A stretch of DNA of 29,265 nt from IMG/VR virus record IMGVR_UViG_3300030012_001496, positions 1 to 29,265 of that record; one strand, 5' to 3'. Position numbers and translations under genes: made by a program. The first letter of the stretch is position 1, and each line of letters opens with the position of its first letter. The DNA is from a virus. The notes below the pieces were generated by a model. It searched no databases, was not told the origin of the DNA, and saw only the letters and a program-made list of their open reading frames with translations. Positions 1-29,029 of the stretch are shown piece after piece.

Positions 1-165
1 GTGCTCTTGAAACGTGCAGTTGTTTACAATTATATGTGCCAAAGGAAATATACTTTGTTTAGCTAAATCTACTTCAAATATATCTCCACTTGTAACTGTG
101 TTAATGTTTGAATTACCTTGAAGATATGTTTTAAGTGTATCTAATATGTCGTAATATGTTGTCAT
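1..165 (-). CDS. Tail completion-like protein, N-terminal part (cut by window start)
   Basis: The gene starts at the ATG at 165 and is still open at base 1, giving 55 codons. The N-terminus begins MTTYYDILDTLKTYL and continues with GDIFEVDLAKQ and FPLAHIIVNN. I recognise this as a type of small virion protein common in flavobacterial phages that is probably involved in tail completion. This assignment rests on recollection of the family, not on a motif with known function. The ATG overlaps the stop codon of the -1 frame of the upstream chaperone gene (ATGA, 162-165), which implies translational coupling. The C-terminal part lies outside the window. Confidence 0.7.
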   Translation of the reverse strand, partial: MTTYYDILDTLKTYLQGNSNINTVTSGDIFEVDLAKQSIFPLAHIIVNNCTFQEH

Positions 166-425
166 GTTTTATATGCTTTTTTTATTTCTTGTTGCTCTAT
201 TTCTATTTTATCTTTTTCAAACGCTAAATAATTTAAACATTGGAATAATGGTAGCTTTGTAACCTTTTTAAAGTTCGAGACATCCCCTTTAGCGAGAGCA
301 TAGATTGATTGATACCATCCCCATTTTTTTCCAAATATTGCTCTAGCTGTTGCATATTCTCTTTCGTTAGATTCTTCTCCAAATATCTCGGTATAGCTAG
401 AAGTAATTCCGTCCCTAAACTGTAA
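162..425 (-). CDS. -1 frame extension of the tail assembly chaperone (frameshift product)
   Basis: This reading frame is open from upstream of the T9 run and ends at TGA 164-162. It has no ATG, GTG or TTG between the preceding in-frame stop and the well-formed coding part, so it is unlikely to start on its own. Its sequence looks like a folded protein: EIFGEESNEREYATA, then KKWGWYQSIYALAKGD, KLPLFQCLNYLAFEKDK and a charged helical tail. Entry by a -1 slip on U UUU UUU (codons TTT TTT at 430-425) would join 173 upstream codons to 87 codons here and give a protein of about 260 aa. The stop overlaps the next ATG as ATGA, the junction used throughout this genome. The layout matches lambda gpG/gpGT. 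A homopolymer sequencing error is the main alternative. Confidence 0.72.
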   Translation of the reverse strand, partial: LQFRDGITSSYTEIFGEESNEREYATARAIFGKKWGWYQSIYALAKGDVSNFKKVTKLPLFQCLNYLAFEKDKIEIEQQEIKKAYKT

Positions 426-943
426 AAAAAAACCATTGAACTTAAAACTACATTCATTGGCATTTCTTTCATTACTTCTTGTATTTCTTCATTTATTTCA
501 TAAGGAGCAATATCGTATTTATTTCCTAGTTTAAAATTAACTGGTCTGTATAATACAGCCATCGCTTTATGTATTTTTTGCCAATCAGATAAATTATTTT
601 CAATATCAATATACTCACCTAAACTTATATCATCTAGTTTTGGTATAAAACCCATATCTACTCCTTCCAAATCAAACCTTTGAACTAACTTAGGTTTCTC
701 TTCAAACGCTTTGTTTAATATATCTAATATTCTTTTATACCCTCTTACAGATATTTTAGAAACATCTTTTAAACTTACGTTACAAAATATTTCAACGAGC
801 TTCATATTTAAAAAGTCTATAAGCTCTTCTGTTTGTTCAGCGTCTTTGTGAGCTTCTACAACTTTCATATATTTTTGATATTGCCATAATTTAATATCTT
901 CAAGAGTTGTAGGTACTTCTAACTCAATAGTTTTTCTTGCCAT
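233..943 (-). CDS. Tail assembly chaperone-like protein (0-frame, gpG-like)
   Basis: The 0-frame product has 236 aa from the ATG at 943. The N-terminus (MARKTIELEVPTTLEDIKLWQYQKYM) and the helical middle resemble the large tail-chaperone or baseplate-hub-like proteins of flavobacterial phages. The segment around residues 160-175 (MPMNVVLSSMVFF) is a conserved-looking helix that ends at the T9 run. After the run, the 0-frame gives a Lys/Asn-rich tail that is less convincing as protein than the -1 frame. In long-tailed phages such proteins coat the tape measure during tail assembly and are often made in two lengths by frameshifting. The leader contains a 19-nt ACCTGA/TCAGGT dyad and a repeat cluster. 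The exact family is uncertain. Confidence 0.72.
   Translation of the reverse strand: MARKTIELEVPTTLEDIKLWQYQKYMKVVEAHKDAEQTEELIDFLNMKLVEIFCNVSLKDVSKISVRGYKRILDILNKAFEEKPKLVQRFDLEGVDMGFIPKLDDISLGEYIDIENNLSDWQKIHKAMAVLYRPVNFKLGNKYDIAPYEINEEIQEVMKEMPMNVVLSSMVFFYSLGTELLLAIPRYLEKNLTKENMQQLEQYLEKNGDGINQSMLSLKGMSRTLKRLQSYHYSNV
424..432 (-). promoter_or_regulatory. T9 slippery run for -1 frameshifting
   Basis: The coding strand reads ATG GTT TTT TTT TAC, with nine consecutive T. The heptamer T TTT TTT fits the X XXY YYZ rule for -1 slippage, and after slipping the next codon is TTA at 425-423. No obvious strong stem-loop was found by eye just downstream. Transcriptional slippage on T9 is also possible. 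Confidence 0.6.
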
Positions 944-982: not shown

Positions 983-1012
983 TATTCACCTGAATATATG
1001 TCAGGTAGAATA
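983..1012. repeat. Inverted repeat (operator or leader hairpin) before the tail chaperone gene
   Basis: TATTC-ACCTGA (983-993) and TCAGGT-A-GAATA (1001-1012) are complementary around a 7-nt AT loop, with one bulged base. On the minus strand the arms are TATTC-T-ACCTGA and TCAGGT-GAATA. No T-run follows on the minus strand, so it is not a typical terminator. It lies 40 nt upstream of the ATG at 943, where an operator or 5'-UTR hairpin would act. Confidence 0.55.
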
Positions 1013-1042
1013 TGTTATTATTTATGTATGTTACATATATGT

Positions 1043-1105
1043 TATACACTAAGTATATCTATACACTATGTATATCTAAACATAGTGTTATATATACACT
1101 ATGTA
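1043..1105. repeat. Control region A: four copies of TATACACTATGTA
   Basis: Copies are at 1043-1055 (one mismatch, CTAAG), 1060-1072, 1079-1090 (inverted) and 1093-1105. The same repeat occurs three times at 13336-13401, and the 20-mer TAATACATAGTGTATATATA (minus strand) is identical in both regions. TTATACACT also resembles a DnaA box (TTATNCACA) with one mismatch. The surrounding 188-bp gap between the stop at 1132 and the ATG at 943 contains no ORF. It probably carries promoter or operator functions for the tail unit. Confidence 0.65.
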
Positions 1106-1131
1106 TTATATATATAATATATATATTCTGA

Positions 1132-1377
1132 CTATTTGACATTTGGAGATAATTTCTTGTAATAGTGAACATATATTTCACATACTTTCTCACTCCATTC
1201 TTTTGCTCCATAAGTCTTAGGGCTTCTTGTTATATTTCCATTATTATCAACTTCAATGTAAAACTCCGTCTGTGTCTTTGGCACAGGATACACTTTGATT
1301 CCATTATTAATACAAAACCCTGCGGCATTTAAAGTATGATTCAAAACAGTATAAAACATTTTACCCATTAGATTCAT
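1132..1377 (-). CDS. Small conserved-looking phage protein, unknown function
   Basis: This is an 81-aa protein if the ATG at 1377 is used; the ATG at 1368 (MGKMFYTVL) is an equally good start. Residues NAAGFCINNGIKVYP and FYIEVDNNGNITRSPKTYGAKEW look like a compact alpha/beta protein. There is no membrane segment or known motif. It stands alone, with a gene-free stretch upstream and control region A downstream. Its last codons (ATCTCCAAATGTCA on the coding strand) match the last codons of the winged-helix gene at 13402, so the two control-region duplications reach into both gene ends. The function is unknown. Confidence 0.65.
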   Translation of the reverse strand: MNLMGKMFYTVLNHTLNAAGFCINNGIKVYPVPKTQTEFYIEVDNNGNITRSPKTYGAKEWSEKVCEIYVHYYKKLSPNVK

Positions 1378-1796
1378 AAAGGTATTAAATTCACATTGGA
1401 CTTACAAATGTCAGATGGAAACCTTAGTTTGTAGAGAGAGTGGAGTAATAAAGCAGAGAGGCACACAAACAGGCATACTCAATTAATATTTACTTTTTTA
1501 ACACCCATACAAACAAAAATAAATCGTTTCTAAGCGATTTTAGGCGCAAAATGGGGTGTATATATAGAATTAAATTAAAATGCTCTTAAATAGCTTGTAA
1601 TATAGCTTAAATTGTGTCTTTTGCGTAGGATTTAGAGGAATAATAAAAAAATTTAGTTTAATTAATCTTTTTTTCTTGATTATCAGCAAGTTAGATTTTT
1701 ACAGCTATGATTTAATAATTAATAAACAGGTCCAAATAATTAATAAAAATTAAATGAATCATAACATATATTATGTTAAATAGTTTGAACAAGAGC
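1378..1796. other. Gene-free AT-rich stretch
   Basis: I see no coding sequence on either strand. The stretch holds a TATTAAATTCACA element (1383-1395). It also holds a nested inverted structure at 1501-1559: an outer ACACCC...GGGTGT pair and an inner AAATCG/CGATTT hairpin at 1521-1540. At its low-numbered side is the leader of the gene at 1377. At its high-numbered side is a post-terminator repeat shared with 3674-3731. No tRNA-like cloverleaf was found. A small structured RNA is possible but unproven. Confidence 0.4.
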
Positions 1797-1809
1797 AAAA
1801 AAAAAGGGA
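1752..1809. repeat. Post-terminator repeat, copy 1
   Basis: This is roughly 58 nt that match 3674-3731 at about 70% by eye. The core is AAATGAA..ATAAC..A.ATTATGTTAAAT, followed by CAAGA/G.C and the A-run of a terminator. The part AACATAATATATGTTAT (minus strand) is nearly palindromic. In both copies it sits immediately 3' of a terminator, where a promoter or operator for the next unit could lie. Confidence 0.45.
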
Positions 1810-1822
1810 GCTAATTGCTCCC
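1797..1822 (-). terminator. Rho-independent terminator
   Basis: On the minus strand GGGAGC-AATTA-GCTCCC is followed by nine T. The stem has six perfect pairs. The TAG stop of the 93-aa gene (1813-1811) runs into the stem, so translation and termination are tightly abutted. Confidence 0.88.
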
Positions 1823-2092
1823 CTCAATGTTCTTAGGTTTTCGTTTTCTAAATTCTTTGGTCTTATTATTAAACCAACTTTGCTTTATTATTTTGTCATC
1901 AATCAAGACACAAAAGGAGGACCAATCTCCAAAAGTTTTTTTAGTCTGTTTGATTGTACAGAAATGGTTGGAATAACTAGAACTTGAACCAACTAACATT
2001 TTTATTTCTGAATGTTCACGAACTCCATAAGATTTATTTGAGCTCTTGTAAGCACAGGAATTGATTTGATTCCAAATAGGATATTGTTTCAT
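1811..2092 (-). CDS. Small phage protein, unknown function
   Basis: This 93-aa protein starts MKQYPIWNQINSCAYKSS and has a central LVGSSSSYSNHF stretch and a basic C-terminus. I recall similar short proteins (MKQYPIWN...VLVGTSASNS) in marine phages and plasmids, none with a known function. The ATG at 2092 lies four bases after the stop of a 50-aa membrane ORF, in a three-gene unit (2520 to 1811). The unit starts at a promoter candidate near 2606 and ends in a strong terminator that begins inside this gene's stop. Confidence 0.7.
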   Translation of the reverse strand: MKQYPIWNQINSCAYKSSNKSYGVREHSEIKMLVGSSSSYSNHFCTIKQTKKTFGDWSSFCVLIDDKIIKQSWFNNKTKEFRKRKPKNIEGSN

Positions 2093-2096
2093 TGTT

Positions 2097-2249
2097 TTAT
2101 AGTTTAAAGATTAATAATAAAAATTGATAGAATAAAGGCATAATTACCTCAAATAGTAGTAAACCGCCCAACACTATCAAAAAGAGTGTAAAAAGCCCAA
2201 AAGAATAAATCTCAAGGGCTTTAATAATTAAGTTTTTAATTGTTTTCAT
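2097..2249 (-). CDS. Small hydrophobic membrane protein (50 aa)
   Basis: ATG 2249 to TAA 2097 encodes 50 aa: MKTIKNLIIKALEIYSFG followed by long runs of Leu/Ile/Phe/Val (about residues 17-49). The whole chain from residue 17 could form one or two membrane helices, interrupted by GG at 28-29 and EV..MP at 34-38. It overlaps the end of the preceding gene by 14 bp and stops four bases before the next ATG, so it fits tightly into the operon. It could be a holin-like or membrane-acting early protein. No family is recognised. Confidence 0.6.
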   Translation of the reverse strand: MKTIKNLIIKALEIYSFGLFTLFLIVLGGLLLFEVIMPLFYQFLLLIFKL

Positions 2250-2520
2250 AATATTCTGTGTAAGATAATGAACGAGGGAGAAAACATTTCTCCTCTCTTA
2301 AAATTCCTCCGATGTCGTGAGCTAGACAGATTCTCATGTCTATATCTTCGATTCGGTCTGGGTTAGCTTTTTTATAATTCTCTAATCCAATTATTGATTT
2401 TCCGAGTTCTTCATCCATTTCAAAATAAATAAATTGAAACATTGCGAGGTCGTTAAGATGTCCTTCACTTACTAAATATTTAGTAACAATTTTTTTCACT
2501 TGTTTTCTAATTGTATCCAT
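2236..2520 (-). CDS. Small phage protein, unknown function
   Basis: This 94-aa protein begins MDTIRKQVKKIVTKYLVSEG. It is mostly helical and mixed-charge, with no Cys pairs or membrane segment. It is the first gene of a unit read from the promoter candidate at 2606-2575, which would leave a leader of roughly 50 nt. The C-terminus overlaps the 50-aa membrane ORF by 14 bp. I do not recognise a family. The position among early-type small genes suggests host interaction, which is inference. Confidence 0.65.
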   Translation of the reverse strand: MDTIRKQVKKIVTKYLVSEGHLNDLAMFQFIYFEMDEELGKSIIGLENYKKANPDRIEDIDMRICLAHDIGGILREEKCFLPRSLSYTEYYENN

Positions 2521-2574
2521 GTTTTTAAATTTTAGATTTTACTTTGTTTTCCGAGATGTCAATGAACTTAGAAA

Positions 2575-2606
2575 CAATATTACAAAACGCAACTGACATA
2601 TACAAG
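2575..2606 (-). promoter_or_regulatory. Promoter candidate, TTG-N20-TAATATTG
   Basis: On the minus strand CTTG (2606-2603) and TAATATTG (2582-2575) are 20 nt apart, close to the Bacteroidetes pattern of -33 TTG and -7 TAnnTTTG. A 21-nt block containing TGTCAGTTGCGTTTTG is identical at 3461-3492, also before a small gene. It drives the 2520-1811 unit. Confidence 0.65.
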
Positions 2607-2674
2607 AACTTTTTTAATTATTTTTTTATTAGCTTTATAAATTAGGTTTGTTGTATCTTGCCAAAATTAAGCAC

Positions 2675-2703
2675 AAAAAAACCCCATTGAATTAACAAAG
2701 GGG
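2675..2703 (-). terminator. Rho-independent terminator
   Basis: On the minus strand CCCC-T-TTG-TTAATT-CAA-T-GGGG is followed by seven T. The apical part contains the recurring CTTTGTnAATTnAAT element. It closes the 141-aa gene that ends at 2729. Confidence 0.82.
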
Positions 2704-2728
2704 TATTAAATTTAAGTATTGAATTTAT

Positions 2729-3154
2729 TTATTCTCTTAATTTTTTAAGTTTATTCTTTAGTTTTTTTATCTTCATTTTTGAATCATCTATTTCTCTAAG
2801 TGTTAAATTTATAACCTCTTTCAACCTCTCTGGACTACTTAAATAATCCTTAATTTCGTTACATTTAGCTAAAACCCATTTCTCATTGTGGCTTTCATTA
2901 TTGTAACTATGTAGGGTGTCAAAACCAATTACTATTCCATCTTCAAATTCACGATGATAAGTTATATCTTCATTACACAAACTCCCATTAAAACCCCAAT
3001 CGTCAATATAGCAGATTAAATAATCATAGGCAAAATGTTCTTTCGGGATTTCTAAATATCCATTTCCCCAACTTCCAACACCTTCAGACATATGAGGTTT
3101 ATGTTGAATTGTTTTAATTATTATTTCTGTTTTATTTTTTATATCTGTTTTCAT
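2729..3154 (-). CDS. Unknown protein with C-terminal basic coiled coil
   Basis: This 141-aa protein starts at ATG 3154 after an A-rich leader. The central part (about residues 24-80) reads GVGSWGNGYLEIPKEHF ... CYIDDWGFNGSL ... IVIGFDTLHS. It vaguely resembles small proteins with the pattern GYxxxPxxH...IGFDTxH seen in phages and plasmids. The last 40 residues are a Lys/Glu-rich helix (LREIDDSKMKIKKLKNKLK) likely to form a coiled coil. It lies downstream of a weak terminator after the gene at 3218 and before a strong one, so it may be expressed by read-through. The function is unknown. Confidence 0.65.
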   Translation of the reverse strand: MKTDIKNKTEIIIKTIQHKPHMSEGVGSWGNGYLEIPKEHFAYDYLICYIDDWGFNGSLCNEDITYHREFEDGIVIGFDTLHSYNNESHNEKWVLAKCNEIKDYLSSPERLKEVINLTLREIDDSKMKIKKLKNKLKKLRE

Positions 3155-3182
3155 ATTTATTGTTTTTATTGTTTTAGTGTTT

Positions 3183-3210
3183 TAAATTAAAGGGGGTTTT
3201 TACACCCCCC
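3183..3210 (-). terminator. Terminator with a short T tract (possible attenuator)
   Basis: On the minus strand GGGGG-TGTAAAAA-CCCCC is followed by TTTAATTT. The stem is strong but the T tract is interrupted, so partial read-through into the gene at 3154 is likely. No promoter was found between it and that gene. Confidence 0.7.
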
Positions 3211-3217
3211 AGGTTGA

Positions 3218-3433
3218 TTATAATCTGTCTAAAAAGTCATTTACTAAATCTTCAAATACATATCTATCTTCACCAACCATGTCAAGATATTTACTTGCTT
3301 CTTCGTTCAGTTCTGCTCTTAAATCAGAATCGTTTAAATTGTCGTTGATACCTTTTTGATAAACAGGTTCTAAGACATAGTTAAAAATGATGTCACTTGT
3401 CATGGCATCAACTTTTGAAAGTGTGTAATTCAT
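3218..3433 (-). CDS. Small acidic phage protein, unknown function
   Basis: I chose the ATG at 3433 (MNYTLSKVDAMTSDIIF), which gives 71 aa. The longer frame from the TTG at 3478 would begin inside the promoter. The protein is acidic and helical (NDNLNDSDLRAELNEEASKYLD) and has no known motif. It is read from the promoter candidate at 3492-3461 and followed within 8 nt by a GGGGG/CCCCC hairpin. It is probably an early protein. No family is recognised. Confidence 0.6.
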   Translation of the reverse strand: MNYTLSKVDAMTSDIIFNYVLEPVYQKGINDNLNDSDLRAELNEEASKYLDMVGEDRYVFEDLVNDFLDRL

Positions 3434-3460
3434 ATTATATAGTTTTAAAATTAATATTTT

Positions 3461-3492
3461 CAATACTACAAAACGCAACTGACATATGCAAG
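3461..3492 (-). promoter_or_regulatory. Promoter candidate, TTG-N20-TAGTATTG
   Basis: CTTG (3492-3489) and TAGTATTG (3468-3461) are 20 nt apart on the minus strand. The region matches the promoter at 2606-2575 in 30 of 32 positions, including TGTCAGTTGCGTTTTG. It lies about 28 nt before the ATG at 3433. Confidence 0.65.
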
Positions 3493-3673
3493 TGTTTTGT
3501 CAAATATTTTTTTTATGGTCATTTTTCTACCTCAGGAAAATTGTCGCTATTGGCATAACTTTTTTTTTGAAGGGTAATATATTACAGAACATAGATGATT
3601 CATTAAATCGCTTAAAAAGTGCCTTAAATGGCATATGGAGATTTAATACAATATCCAACTTTTAGTATTTATA

Positions 3674-3731
3674 AAATGAACTATAACTTACATTATGTTA
3701 AATTATTAAAATCAAGACAAAAAAAAGAGGG
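3674..3731. repeat. Post-terminator repeat, copy 2
   Basis: This matches 1752-1809 (AAATGAA, ATAAC, ATTATGTTAAAT, then CAAGACAAAAAAA). The rest of the 3493-3718 gap contains no ORF. It holds short GCTTAAA / GCCTTAAATGGC sequences and T8 or T9 runs. Confidence 0.45.
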
Positions 3732-3748
3732 TTAAAATTAACCCCCTC
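3719..3748 (-). terminator. Rho-independent terminator
   Basis: On the minus strand GAGGG-GG-TTAATTTTAA-CCCTC is followed by eight T. It lies about 22 nt after the stop of the 92-aa gene. Confidence 0.82.
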
Positions 3749-3769
3749 AAAAACATGAACATATAATTT

Positions 3770-4048
3770 TTAATTATTAAAATCCTCCAACAAAGTTTCA
3801 GGTTCTTGCCAATCTACCATAGAAAATAATGTATATGCTAAGTCTTCATCGCCTTTAGCTATATTCATAAAATCTTTATAGCTGTATTTTGTGTCTGATA
3901 ATTCAGGGATGTAACATATGCCCTTTTTGTTTTCAAAAGCTTTGTCATCTTTAAAACAGTACCCATTTTCTGTCGCTGTTTTTAAATACTTTCTTAGCTC
4001 TCTATTTTGTTTTGCATGGTGCAAAATGTTTCGTTCTATTCTGTGCAT
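3770..4048 (-). CDS. Small phage protein, unknown function
   Basis: This 92-aa protein starts MHRIERNILHHAKQNREL with a basic helical N-terminus and continues into an acidic C-terminal half (KYSYKDFMNIAKGDEDLAYTLF). It is a single-gene unit with its own sigma-70-like promoter (TTGACA/TATACT, 4111-4082) and its own terminator (3748-3719). Its isolation suggests independent, strong expression. No family is recognised. Confidence 0.65.
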   Translation of the reverse strand: MHRIERNILHHAKQNRELRKYLKTATENGYCFKDDKAFENKKGICYIPELSDTKYSYKDFMNIAKGDEDLAYTLFSMVDWQEPETLLEDFNN

Positions 4049-4081
4049 ATTATATATTTTTAGTTAAACATTGGCAAGTTA

Positions 4082-4111
4082 AGTATAATATTCCACATGA
4101 CCAAATGTCAA
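4082..4111 (-). promoter_or_regulatory. Promoter candidate, TTGACA-N18-TATACT
   Basis: On the minus strand TTGACA (4111-4106) and TATACT (4087-4082) have an 18-nt spacer. This is a near-consensus sigma-70 promoter and also fits the Bacteroidetes TTG/TA layout. The ATG at 4048 is about 34 nt downstream. Confidence 0.65.
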
Positions 4112-4145
4112 GTGTAAATAATTTTTATTTATATTTATAGGTTAT

Positions 4146-4183
4146 AAAAAACCCCCCATAGAATTTATTAAATTCACAGAGGG
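4146..4183 (-). terminator. Rho-independent terminator with an extended stem
   Basis: On the minus strand an outer CCCTC/GGGGGG arm encloses GAATTT-AAT-AAATTC, followed by six T. It closes the small-gene operon 5855-4217. The apical part contains the recurring GTGAATTTAATA element. Confidence 0.8.
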
Positions 4184-4216
4184 TAAAAACATGGATTGAA
4201 TTTATATCTATTAAAT

Positions 4217-4480
4217 TTATTCCTCTATTAAATTTATTTGTATTGAATTGCCATTACGACAAACAGGAACTTCATCATCTAAATAATAACAAGTGTTGTC
4301 ATTAGGATTCCACACAAATATTCTACCTCTTGCCATACTTATTAAATTTATAATATCATCATCTGATAATAAACTATAAAATTCACAAAGGGCTTGATGT
4401 CTTGTTTTTGTTTCTTTTTTTGTTTTCATGTCTTCTAAGTCTTTGTTATATTCTTTTAATTCTTCTAAAGTTGTTTTCAT
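4217..4480 (-). CDS. Small phage protein, unknown function
   Basis: This 87-aa protein starts MKTTLEELKEYNKDLEDM with a charged helix and has a second half (GRIFVWNPNDNTCYYLDDEVPV) likely to be beta-stranded. It is the last gene of the 5855-4217 operon and begins at an ATGA overlap with the preceding stop. Downstream, the 3' end carries several ATTAAATTTA repeats that lead into a terminator. No family is recognised. Confidence 0.65.
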   Translation of the reverse strand: MKTTLEELKEYNKDLEDMKTKKETKTRHQALCEFYSLLSDDDIINLISMARGRIFVWNPNDNTCYYLDDEVPVCRNGNSIQINLIEE

Positions 4481-4674
4481 TGTTTTAAATCTTTGTAATA
4501 TGTTTTATATTCTTCTTCGGATAATAGATTCATATATTCTATTCTCCTATTTCTACAATATTCTGATTTAGTCCATTCGGCACTTCTATCAGTATTAAAT
4601 TGTTTTAAGTATATGTTTTCGCCTAATTCTTTTATGGCAAATATATATTTATACTTTTTGCTTTCTGTACTCAT
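4477..4674 (-). CDS. Small phage protein, unknown function
   Basis: This 65-aa protein starts MSTESKKYKYIFAIKELG and ends LLSEEEYKTYYKDLKQ. It is basic and acidic mixed, without known motifs. It overlaps the upstream 56-aa gene by 26 bp and the downstream gene by ATGA, which supports real translation. No family is recognised. Confidence 0.6.
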   Translation of the reverse strand: MSTESKKYKYIFAIKELGENIYLKQFNTDRSAEWTKSEYCRNRRIEYMNLLSEEEYKTYYKDLKQ

Positions 4675-4819
4675 GCTCTAGGTTTTTATGATATACATCA
4701 AGTTTAGCTTCTAACTCTGCAATTTTATCTTCATATTCCTTATTCTTTTCTGTTGCATTGTTTAATAATTGTCTTAAGTGGTTTATTTCCACTCTAACTA
4801 TGTCTGGTGTTCTAGTCAT
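4649..4819 (-). CDS. Small coiled-coil protein (56 aa)
   Basis: ATG 4819 to TAA 4649. The sequence MTRTPDIVRVEINHLRQLL is followed by Lys/Glu-rich heptads (KNKEYEDKIAELEAKLDVY) and predicts one long coiled-coil helix. It overlaps its upstream neighbour by 8 bp and its downstream neighbour by 26 bp in a close-packed operon. The function is unknown. Confidence 0.6.
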   Translation of the reverse strand: MTRTPDIVRVEINHLRQLLNNATEKNKEYEDKIAELEAKLDVYHKNLEHEYRKQKV

Positions 4820-4970
4820 CTGTTCTTATTTTACTTGTTAAAAATTCTATTGTGTCCATAATGAACAAGTCCTTAGCTTTCTTGCTATCCATGTATTTTG
4901 GGATACATAACCAATATTGCTCTTTGTTTGCGCCAAAGAACCTTTTTAATATTCTTCCTAATGTTTTCAT
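4812..4970 (-). CDS. Small phage protein (52 aa), unknown function
   Basis: ATG 4970 to TAG 4812. The N-terminus is basic (MKTLGRILKRFFGANKEQYW) and the rest helical (PKYMDSKKAKDLFIMDTIEF). The N-terminal 15 residues could be amphipathic and membrane-associated. It begins at an ATGA junction with the upstream gene. No family is recognised. Confidence 0.6.
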   Translation of the reverse strand: MKTLGRILKRFFGANKEQYWLCIPKYMDSKKAKDLFIMDTIEFLTSKIRTDD

Positions 4971-5119
4971 ATTCTATTATTAAATTCGTTTTGTAGTTTT
5001 CTAAAGTATTTTAAATCTTTACTATTTGAATAATCATATTGAATTTTGTCTGATAATTCAGTAAGCTCATCTTTTAAATCTTCAATATCCATTTCTCTTA
5101 TTTGCCAAATTGTTTTCAT
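4967..5119 (-). CDS. Small helical protein (50 aa), unknown function
   Basis: ATG 5119 to TGA 4967. MKTIWQIREMDIEDLKDELT is followed by a charged helix that ends KYFRKLQNEFNNRI. It is joined to both neighbours by ATGA overlaps. It is probably one helical hairpin. No family is recognised. Confidence 0.6.
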   Translation of the reverse strand: MKTIWQIREMDIEDLKDELTELSDKIQYDYSNSKDLKYFRKLQNEFNNRI

Positions 5120-5295
5120 AAGTTATCTGCATTTTTATTAAAGTTATCTTTATACTCATCATCTCCATCAGCATATCCAGAAGCTTCAGCATCTATGTTT
5201 CTATAAACTCGTGAAACATATTCTCCGTATGTTCTCCACCAATCAACCTCACTTTCAAGTTTATTCATTTTTTGTCTTAATTCTTTTATGCTCAT
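5116..5295 (-). CDS. Small acidic protein (59 aa), unknown function
   Basis: ATG 5295 to TGA 5116. The protein starts MSIKELRQKMNKLESEVDWW as a coiled-coil-like helix and ends in an Asp/Asn-rich tail (YADGDDEYKDNFNKNADN). The WW and acidic tail are its most distinctive features. It overlaps the downstream gene by ATGA and lies 1 nt after the upstream stop. No family is recognised. Confidence 0.6.
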   Translation of the reverse strand: MSIKELRQKMNKLESEVDWWRTYGEYVSRVYRNIDAEASGYADGDDEYKDNFNKNADNL

Positions 5296-5296
5296 T

Positions 5297-5467
5297 TTAT
5301 ATAATTATTATTTCTGATTCTGAACAAAAGTTACCACTATCCATTATATAATATCCATCCTCATCGTAACCTTTTATTGTTACTTCACTACCCTCAATAT
5401 AATTTGGGTGTTCATGTAGGTTATCTACAATCATTACTTTAGTTCCAACAGGTATTAAATTATTCAT
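5297..5467 (-). CDS. Small beta-barrel-like protein (56 aa)
   Basis: ATG 5467 to TAA 5297. The alternation of strands and turns (LIPVGTKVMIVDNLHEHP, GSEVTIKGYDEDGYYIM) resembles an SH3-like or KOW-like five-strand barrel. No catalytic motif is seen. The ATG overlaps the stop of the preceding gene as TAATG. The fold is inferred from the pattern only. Confidence 0.6.
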   Translation of the reverse strand: MNNLIPVGTKVMIVDNLHEHPNYIEGSEVTIKGYDEDGYYIMDSGNFCSESEIIII

Positions 5468-5724
5468 TACATTCTTAATTTAATTTGATTATAGACTTTG
5501 TTTGCTATGTCTGTATACTTGTCAAGTATTTTAAGATTCTTGTCAAAACTATCTACATTATTAAGGTTTTGTTTTAAATGTTCCATATCTGAATCATCAG
5601 CAAAATCTTCAATTACTCTTGGCATAATCATTTGTTCTGTTATATAATCTACAATGCCATCTGCACAATCAATTATCTTGTCTCTTTCCTCCATCTCTAA
5701 TTGGTCTTTTTCTCTTTGTTTCAT
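5467..5724 (-). CDS. Small helical acidic protein, unknown function
   Basis: This 85-aa protein starts MKQREKDQLEMEERDKIIDC. It is highly charged and helical throughout, with a central acidic patch (EDFADDSDMEHL). It begins at an ATGA overlap with the 44-aa gene and ends at a TAATG overlap. No family is recognised. Confidence 0.62.
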   Translation of the reverse strand: MKQREKDQLEMEERDKIIDCADGIVDYITEQMIMPRVIEDFADDSDMEHLKQNLNNVDSFDKNLKILDKYTDIANKVYNQIKLRM

Positions 5725-5855
5725 TTCTTTTTCTTTTTAATTGATTCATCTAATATCTTAATATTATTTTTCATAATAATATCAAAGTCTGCACGATGAA
5801 AATATCTTTCTTCATCGTATCTTTTTAAGGTTGCTTTAATGTTTGCTTTTTTCAT
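5721..5855 (-). CDS. Small basic protein (44 aa), first gene of the small-gene operon
   Basis: ATG 5855 to TGA 5721. MKKANIKATLKRYDEERYFH is followed by a helix that ends in five Lys. The gene follows the promoter candidate at 5903-5876 by about 20 nt and overlaps the next gene by ATGA. The basic character would suit nucleic-acid binding, which is inference only. Confidence 0.6.
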   Translation of the reverse strand: MKKANIKATLKRYDEERYFHRADFDIIMKNNIKILDESIKKKKK

Positions 5856-5875
5856 TGTATTGTAATTAGATTACT

Positions 5876-5903
5876 ATATTACTAAATATTTTGCAACTGA
5901 CAA
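5876..5903 (-). promoter_or_regulatory. Promoter candidate, TTGTCA-N16-TAATAT
   Basis: On the minus strand TTGTCA (5903-5898) and TAATAT (5881-5876) are 16 nt apart. The TGTCAGTTGC stretch is also present in the promoters at 2575 and 3461. It drives the operon 5855-4217. Confidence 0.6.
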
Positions 5904-13335: not shown

Positions 13336-13401
13336 ATTACACTATGTTATATATTATGTTATACACTATGTTATATATTTATTATATATATACACTATGT
13401 A
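13336..13401. repeat. Control region B: three copies of TATACACTATGT
   Basis: Copies are at 13336-13348, 13360-13372 and 13389-13401. They are close to the four in control region A (1043-1105). The whole gap (13325-13401) between the winged-helix gene and the primase is made of these repeats and AT-rich spacers. TTATACACT is one mismatch from a DnaA box. Replication origin, promoter and operator are all possible roles. Confidence 0.65.
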
Positions 13402-13692
13402 TTACAAGGAACTGACAAGTCTGGCATTTGGAGATATAAATATTTTTCTTTGTTTTCCGTAATTGCCAATACTTTTTGTTTCTCTTTTAATATATTCTTT
13501 GTCTTCTAATTTTTTCAATACTCTATATAAGGTTCTATCGTTGAGTTTCAGGTTGTTACATATAGCTTCGTTTGAAGCATAACAATAATTCTTTTTTATT
13601 GCCAAAGATGACAAATAAGATAAAACTACTGCTTCTTGTATAGATAAATTTGTATTCATAAATGCTAGGTTAATATTAATATAATTTTTCAT
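13402..13692 (-). CDS. Winged-helix DNA-binding protein
   Basis: I chose the ATG at 13692 (MKNYININLAFM, 96 aa) over the TTG at 13713. The middle part (LSIQEAVVLSYLSSL ... SNEAICNNLKLNDRTLYRVLKKLEDKEYIKRE) is a classic winged helix-turn-helix: the recognition helix is NDRTLYRVLKKLE and the wing follows at IKRETKS. Proteins of this type start replication (DnaD/RepA-like) or repress promoters. It lies between the SSB-like and primase genes and immediately upstream of control region B, which it may bind. The C-terminal SPN-codons repeat those of the gene at 1132. Confidence 0.8.
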   Translation of the reverse strand: MKNYININLAFMNTNLSIQEAVVLSYLSSLAIKKNYCYASNEAICNNLKLNDRTLYRVLKKLEDKEYIKRETKSIGNYGKQRKIFISPNARLVSSL

Positions 13693-27394: not shown

Positions 27395-29029
27395 TTAATC
27401 TATTTGTGCATTATTTGTAATATTTCTGTCAAGCTCTTGAGCTGATGATATTTCTTTACTAACAACAAATGCTTTTATTGGTCTTCCTGTTACTGCTGCT
27501 AATCCAGCAGCTAATTGTGATGCTCCTCCTGTTCCTACAACATTAAAGTCTGGTGCTTCTACTATACCTCCTTCTCCTCCTTCACCACCACCTCCAATAG
27601 ATGTTGGCACATTACCTTTTGCTCTAATAGCTCTAATTCCTGTTGCAGCCGATGCAACTATTGCTGCTATATTTACTGCTGAAGATATATTGTTTGATAG
27701 TTTTAATCTTCTAGCATTAGCTTTTATAGGTACTGACAAAGCAGGATTTAAAGCAGCAGCAGCGTTTGAAGTTGCAGTAATAACTGCGTTAGATGCTTTT
27801 GTAGTTATAATAACCTTAGCTATTTCTGATGCTTTTTCTGCTATAATTGCTGCAATTTTCATATCATCAGTTAAGAATCCTAAATTCTTAAAACTATTTG
27901 ATAATTCTCTCAAGCTATTTGCATATGTTTGTTGTATTTTAATTCTTGTTTTAGTTTCTAACGCTTCAACTTTAGTCATTTGCTTCATAAACTTAGTAAA
28001 GTTGTCACCAAACTCGTCTAAAGAATCTTTAGATTTATCAGTCATGTCTTTTATTTGGTCTGCTAAAGTTATGCTTCTACCTATTCTACCAAAAGTTCTA
28101 ACAATCTTTTGTTCATTCATTTCAAATCCAGTTGTATCAAGACCATTTAACATATCTGTAAGTTCTGCTATATCTGATTTTATGTCATCCATAGCTTTTT
28201 GTCTTCTTTCTTGAGCTTTAATTATTACATCAGCCATAGTATTATCAACACCAACTGCATCTAACATTTTTGCTTTAAAAATATCAATCATACTTATATT
28301 ATCTCCAAGACTAGAAGTTTCTAAATCTAATAATTGCACATATTTAGATTGTATTAAAGATATTATAGCTTGTGCTTTTGCTTTTTGTTTAAGCATTGGA
28401 ATATATTCCTTGATTTTTTTTCTTGACTTTTCTGTTAAATTTCCTTCTTTATCTAATTCTAAATTTAATTTTTTATGACTTCTGTTTAATTCATCAACAG
28501 CTTGTTGTTTTTCAAATGTAGAACTTCTTGCATCATCTAATACAGAAACTAATGTTTGTAATTTACCAATTTGCTCTCCAGCAACTTTATTAGCTTCCTC
28601 TTGCATTTTCTTTAGCTCTTTAGTTTTTTCAGTTACGCCTGTAAGCATTTCCATTAGTTTTGGTCCAAATGAAATTAATAACTGAACTAATATTAAAAAC
28701 CCACCAGTACCTATTAGAGACTTACCTAATTCTTTAAATGATGCAATTACTCCTTTATTTGTTTCAACAAAACTTGCAAATAATGTAACAACTTGAGATA
28801 AGTTGTTTGCTATAGCAGTAAATCCAAAAGAAGCATCTGAAGCTAAACGACCTGTTTCTAATAATATAGCATTATTTAATCCAGACTGAGCTCTACCTTT
28901 TTCAGTAGCTTTTGTTACTCTCGTAGTAGCTCCTTCTAATTGATTTAATTTATTTACTACCTTATCTACATTTACTTCTGCTGATTTAGTAGTAATATCA
29001 ACCTGTATAAGTATTTTTTTACTTGCCAT
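27395..29029 (-). CDS. Tail tape measure protein
   Basis: This 544-aa protein is largely helical. The N-terminal part (ITTKSAEVNVDKVVNKLNQLEG) is followed by NAILLETGRLASDASFGFTAIANNLSQVVTLF, a hydrophobic stretch near 85-120 (SLIGTGGFLILVQLLISFGP), long coiled coils (125-360) and an Ala-rich hydrophobic region (410-465). The tail is Gly-rich (SIGGGGEGGEGGIVEAPDFNVVGTGGASQLAAGL). These features match tape measures of flavobacterial siphoviruses. At about 0.15 nm per residue the tail would be near 80 nm. It follows a 48-aa gene with an 11-bp overlap. Confidence 0.9.
   Translation of the reverse strand: MASKKILIQVDITTKSAEVNVDKVVNKLNQLEGATTRVTKATEKGRAQSGLNNAILLETGRLASDASFGFTAIANNLSQVVTLFASFVETNKGVIASFKELGKSLIGTGGFLILVQLLISFGPKLMEMLTGVTEKTKELKKMQEEANKVAGEQIGKLQTLVSVLDDARSSTFEKQQAVDELNRSHKKLNLELDKEGNLTEKSRKKIKEYIPMLKQKAKAQAIISLIQSKYVQLLDLETSSLGDNISMIDIFKAKMLDAVGVDNTMADVIIKAQERRQKAMDDIKSDIAELTDMLNGLDTTGFEMNEQKIVRTFGRIGRSITLADQIKDMTDKSKDSLDEFGDNFTKFMKQMTKVEALETKTRIKIQQTYANSLRELSNSFKNLGFLTDDMKIAAIIAEKASEIAKVIITTKASNAVITATSNAAAALNPALSVPIKANARRLKLSNNISSAVNIAAIVASAATGIRAIRAKGNVPTSIGGGGEGGEGGIVEAPDFNVVGTGGASQLAAGLAAVTGRPIKAFVVSKEISSAQELDRNITNNAQID

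Follow-up and report, generated by a model that had tools for sequence, protein, structure and literature searches.

We found that programmed −1 recoding at a run of nine U residues probably lets one gene in the window (the whole stretch of DNA analysed, a viral record of 29,265 bases) encode two proteins. We put the probability of this reading, which comes from comparing the gene with its relatives, at about 80%. The products would be a short form of 236 amino acids and a long form of 260 amino acids, with residues 1–173 in common (Table 1). In the mechanism that we propose, most copies would be read through the run in the 0 frame to give the short form, and a minority would move back by one base within the run and be read in the −1 frame to give the long form, which we infer to be the minority product.

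Table 1. Positions of the recoded gene, its parts and related genes in the window.
Feature	Position	Strand	Remarks
Short-product ORF (0 frame, 236 aa), phrog_32199 family	233..943	-	ORF reading; family function not annotated
T9 slip run	424..432	-	0-frame heptamer U_UUU_UUU at 431-425
−1 frame extension, 87 aa, KKWGWYQS motif, stop included	162..425	-	would yield the 260-aa long product
Codons read in both frames (63)	236..424	-	dual-coding constraint strongest in first ~27 codons
Next gene, 5′ part, exits window; phrog_30964 family in relatives	1..165	-	ATGA overlap with the −1 stop
Probable tape measure protein	27395..29029	-	phrog_30292 in common with annotated tape measure of Flavobacterium phage 6H

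The original prediction described a T9 run followed by two open frames, with the 0 frame ending at 233 and the −1 frame at 162, and these coordinates were right on re-reading. The ATGA overlap between the −1 stop and the next gene was also confirmed, as were the predicted product sizes of about 236 and 260 aa (an ORF of 236 aa and a fusion of 260 aa). Across the run, the 0-frame codons are GTT (433–431), TTT, TTT and TAC (424–422). The −1 frame is free of stops from position 488 down to a TGA at 164–162, and the earlier claim that its coding part has no start codon held true: ATG, GTG and TTG are all absent from the −1 frame of the window, both 5′ and 3′ of the T9 run. The 87-aa extension is therefore reachable only by a change of frame. 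In simulations in which the −1 protein was kept fixed and synonymous codons were drawn at random, the 0 frame remained open over 62 codons in 1.65% of trials.

The arrangement is shared by a large family. Using the short product as a query we found 63 relatives in IMG/VR, all of which have the T9 run, and we searched for further relatives with the extension, the N-domain of phage P12024L, and three divergent members as queries. The family in IMG/VR has at least 569 matches to the N-domain and at least 594 to the extension. Among the matches listed, the 0/−1 relation is kept in 327 of the 328 loci that have both parts, and the T run in these 327 loci is 9 (255 loci), 10 (63 loci) or 12 (9 loci) bases long, but never shorter than 9. 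They represent 246 distinct sequences, every one of which contains U_UUU_UUU in the 0-frame register and a −1 extension of 80–92 codons. The 0-frame tail had been described as almost as long as the extension. The length of this tail differs between lineages, from 7 to 85 codons in relatives and mostly 53–69, whereas the extension is universal. Sequences that are 96–98% identical in the N-domain include T10 and T12 forms, which suggests that the exact length of the run is not critical. All 54 relatives that we aligned match phrog_32199. Two isolated phages of Nonlabens, P12024L and P12024S, share the T9 run and the −1 extension, and the T10 form is present in a contig assigned by binning to a Flavobacteriaceae MAG, so flavobacterial hosts are indicated. 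A tblastn search of GenBank phages with the window's extension found no match; P12024L surfaced weakly when a divergent family member was the query, and we then read its record directly.

Could the frame change be a sequencing or assembly error in a gene that is really one continuous frame? A single locus of the 328 listed, L273, is in keeping with this explanation, because it has a T10 run with both parts in one frame. Its sister contigs have T9, and the in-frame T10 of L273 is either an error or a natural variant. Against this explanation, the −1 relation is present in 327 independent contigs and in two isolate genomes, and the slip codons and both reading frames are under constraint, as described below. 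The original prediction had held that homologs with a single continuous frame would mean an error; such a frame was found in L273 and in distant homologs alone, and not in the other 327 loci. We consider sequencing error to be ruled out by these loci and the two isolates, and for practical purposes give the explanation no weight. Alternatively, the T run might be a phase-variation tract, with slippage during DNA replication toggling the gene between a fused form and the short form only. The tract is a homopolymer with known lengths of 9, 10 and 12, and L273 is in frame, but the T10 and T12 forms come from codon changes or from whole codons that preserve the frame relation, and a single phase is common to 327 of the 328 contigs, which makes phase variation very improbable.

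Both reading frames near the T9 run look as if they have been under selection. The V-F-F slip codons have undergone no synonymous change, compared to approximately 630 pairwise differences expected. Over the first 27 codons of the overlap, the −1 frame has undergone 0.18–0.27 of the synonymous change expected, a fraction that rises to 0.7 over codons 45–62 (these figures are pairwise counts, uncorrected for relatedness). Among 40 relatives with equal overlap length, variability in the N-domain is 0.364 at third positions of the 0 frame versus 0.096 at second positions, and in the overlap region of the same relatives no codon position dominates the variation. A 0-frame motif just 3′ of the run, Y-x-L-G-x-E-L, is conserved against the codon choice of the −1 frame–for example, the Arg after the run is encoded by AGG in 212 cases and AGA in 1, versus 180 and 478 in the N-domain, and the Phe after the run is encoded by TTT in 240 cases and TTC in none, versus 1369 and 469 in the N-domain. 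The preference for AGG retains a Gly in the 0 frame, and a codon bias that preserves the motif indicates that the residues with which the short form continues past the site are important as well. This motif contradicts the earlier view that convincing protein is read in the −1 frame alone. The comparison of homologs that had been proposed as a check bears out the conservation of the T run and its 0/−1 relation (327 of 328 loci listed), and the synonymous constraint in the −1 frame.

The T9 run is not an accident of base composition. Outside the recoded gene, a non-redundant set of 305 genes (240 kb) from these phages lacks any T run of 8 or more, where synonymous shuffles gave an expectation of about 14 overlapping T8 words. 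In a set of 293 genes that partly overlaps the 305, all 44 of the T runs of 9 or more sit at the recoding site. T7 occurs in the 305 other genes at 0.28, 0.25 and 0.32 of expectation in the three registers. More generally, T7, A7 and A8 are all well under expectation in these genes irrespective of register, a general avoidance of homopolymers. We considered a register-dependent avoidance of T7 as a sign of ribosomal slippage, but dropped it because there is no effect of register.

These sequence comparisons strongly support programmed −1 recoding at the T run. The slippage on U_UUU_UUU that was originally predicted is one of two mechanisms that could bring it about, since a T run of 9 or more also suits RNA polymerase, and ribosomal and polymerase slippage lead to an identical protein. 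We rank the ribosome slightly first, at even odds: two tRNA-Phe molecules would slip in tandem on U_UUU_UUU. Slippage by RNA polymerase, in which a share of the mRNAs would have U10 and yield the long form by normal translation, we regard as somewhat short of an even chance. The two could also act together.

Transcriptional slippage in bacteria is reported at T runs above 8 (PMC3711429), and bacterial RNA polymerase slips on runs of 9 A or T (PMC5009743), a condition that is matched by the 246 distinct sequences, none of which has a run shorter than 9. However, a minimum of 9 is forced by U_UUU_UUU together with the flanking coded residues, with a free choice in one sequence (L168) alone, and every T9 holds the heptamer in register, so neither fact separates the mechanisms. 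We therefore rejected the lower limit of 9 as proof of polymerase slippage. Stimulators, a frequent though dispensable element of ribosomal frameshifting, were sought on both sides of the run. Downstream, there is no excess folding of the RNA (mean z of −0.08 for 25 sequences, considering nested structures only), which agrees with the original prediction that no obvious structure lies there. Upstream, Shine-Dalgarno-like tetramers are present in just 12 of the 246 distinct sequences. The lack of downstream structure and the scarcity of upstream tetramers favor polymerase, as do reports that, for E. coli ribosomes, U_UUU_UUU is a far less effective slip site than A_AAA_AAG (PMC5009743) and that Shine-Dalgarno sequences are not recognized by ribosomes of Bacteroidia (PMC9976891), and the independence of T7 avoidance from register in other genes. 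Counting against polymerase, T10 and T12 forms exist among the near-identical sequences described above, though slippage should increase with length, and the frameshifts of lambda-type chaperones are ribosomal (PMC5009743).

A more specific proposal is that, throughout a lineage of flavobacterial siphophages, polymerase slippage on T9 determines how much of each tail chaperone form is made, with both overlapping frames selected. We think this unlikely, but if true it would mean that polymerase slippage replaces ribosomal frameshifting in hosts without Shine-Dalgarno pairing. With T9, T10 and T12 all available as natural variants, a direct test could decide between ribosome and polymerase, in a non-Shine-Dalgarno group of bacteria.

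From the recoding and the position of the gene in the tail module, we suggest that the short and long products probably act as a tail assembly chaperone. As in lambda gpG/gpGT, the shared domain would bind the tape measure protein and the extra domain of the long form would recruit the tail tube protein; the probable tape measure protein of the window (Table 1) is the likely partner. The gene order in relatives is TerL, the recoded gene, a phrog_30964 gene, a weakly HK97-gp10-like gene, a gene for a protein of 333–452 aa, another for a protein of 745–839 aa, the tape measure gene and a protease gene. The recoded gene is the first of the tail module in relatives, and it has in common with gpG/gpGT-type genes a −1 recoding with a short and an extended product, in a tail module. 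It is not directly 5′ of the tape measure gene, with four genes intervening in L078 and L241. The phrog_30964 gene that follows it is perhaps the tail terminator. In the window, approximately 5 kb consisting mostly of small ORFs (1000–5900) separates TerL from the recoded gene; the two are adjacent in P12024L. An AT-rich element of 56 bases at 1018–1073 in the window recurs at 13347–13402 with 82% identity, and there is a short inverted match at 1100–1123.

Structure prediction has good confidence for the shared domain; the short product as a whole has a mean pLDDT of 80, with values below 50 in the last 30 residues of the 0-frame tail. A predicted long helix (residues 163–191) spans the frameshift point at 172–173, and prediction for the extension by itself returned a modest, helical model. 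There was no clear match when the short product was used in a fold search of the PDB. In BFVD its matches are mainly uncharacterised phage proteins, among them the P12024S gene product, with a weak match to a model named tail assembly chaperone (probability 0.66, E-value 0.35). Among 54 members there was a weak match to Phage_TAC_7 in one (E-value 0.058) and weak matches to phrog_166, annotated 'tail protein', in six (best E-value 0.0025). Overall, neither these 54 members nor the PDB and BFVD searches yielded a convincing sequence or fold match to known chaperone families. The chaperone identity that was originally assigned is therefore plausible for a gene that opens the tail module, but it is inferred and not backed by a convincing family match. 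This lack of a match, the terminator-like and HK97-gp10-like genes that come next, and the position of a single-frame homolog in Duneviridae after the portal and adaptor genes are all consistent with a different function for a gene whose recoding is real, namely a structural protein of the neck or tail, or an assembly factor of another kind, whose extended form is a minor one. We regard that function as rather unlikely, because tail assembly chaperones are typified by a minor product that is extended in the −1 frame and encoded in the tail module, and because we noticed no second recoded gene up to the tape measure gene in an unsystematic look.

That this is a known kind of recoding in a previously unannotated gene family is strongly supported. 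Within our partial coverage of the literature, we found nothing on recoding in this family, or on a form of recoding that is homopolymer-only, stimulator-free and doubly coding. Our results unite two PHROG families of unannotated function, and two GenBank genes annotated as hypothetical, as one recoded gene with a large family. Its resemblance to lambda gpG/gpGT is in gene arrangement, without a convincing match in sequence or fold: in both, one gene in the tail module encodes two products with a common N-terminal part, one short and one extended in the −1 frame. They differ in that the slip site is a homopolymer of T9 to T12 here and G_GGA_AAG in lambda, the frames overlap for 63 codons here, and the gene here precedes a terminator-like gene instead of lying immediately before the tape measure gene. 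In the transcriptional slippage of Thermus dnaX and Shigella mxiE there are likewise nine or more identical A or T bases at the frame change (PMC5009743, PMC3711429), but slippage in those genes is backed by RNA evidence, whereas the recoded gene is known from its sequence. We found no report, in the literature searched, of transcriptional slippage at T9 or A9 in a phage tail gene.

There are also parallels in isolated phages. P12024L gp40+gp41 and P12024S gp38+gp39 (phrog_32199 and phrog_38404) are a homologous gene with the same T9 run and a −1 extension, though with only ~30% identity to the gene in the window and a much shorter 0-frame tail. They are annotated as two separate hypothetical genes with no frameshift; in P12024L, what is annotated as gp41 (L067:24473-24640, 55 aa, phrog_38404) very likely represents the last part of gp40's −1 extension and not a gene of its own. 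We considered gp10 of Flavobacterium phage 6H as a second case of frameshifting but dropped it, as it looks like a disrupted single-frame gene. This gene (L242:10352-10927, minus strand) encodes 191 aa and has its C-terminal part in another frame, while relatives such as that of FPSV-F7 (293 aa) are continuous; either the 6H gene is broken or its record contains an error. Distant homologs in Duneviridae and Leef phages (phrog_25418; in FPSV-F7, laban6-1, Ingeline_1 and Leef_1) are similarly located in the tail or neck module of siphophages, and give a profile match over the whole long product (hhalign probability 94.5, E-value 7.7e-8, 234 columns including the extension, in a one-template comparison). 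Unlike the recoded gene, they have no slip site and encode 258–301 aa in a single continuous frame. The long form is therefore a real protein architecture, and these continuous-frame homologs reveal the form that the long protein takes without recoding.
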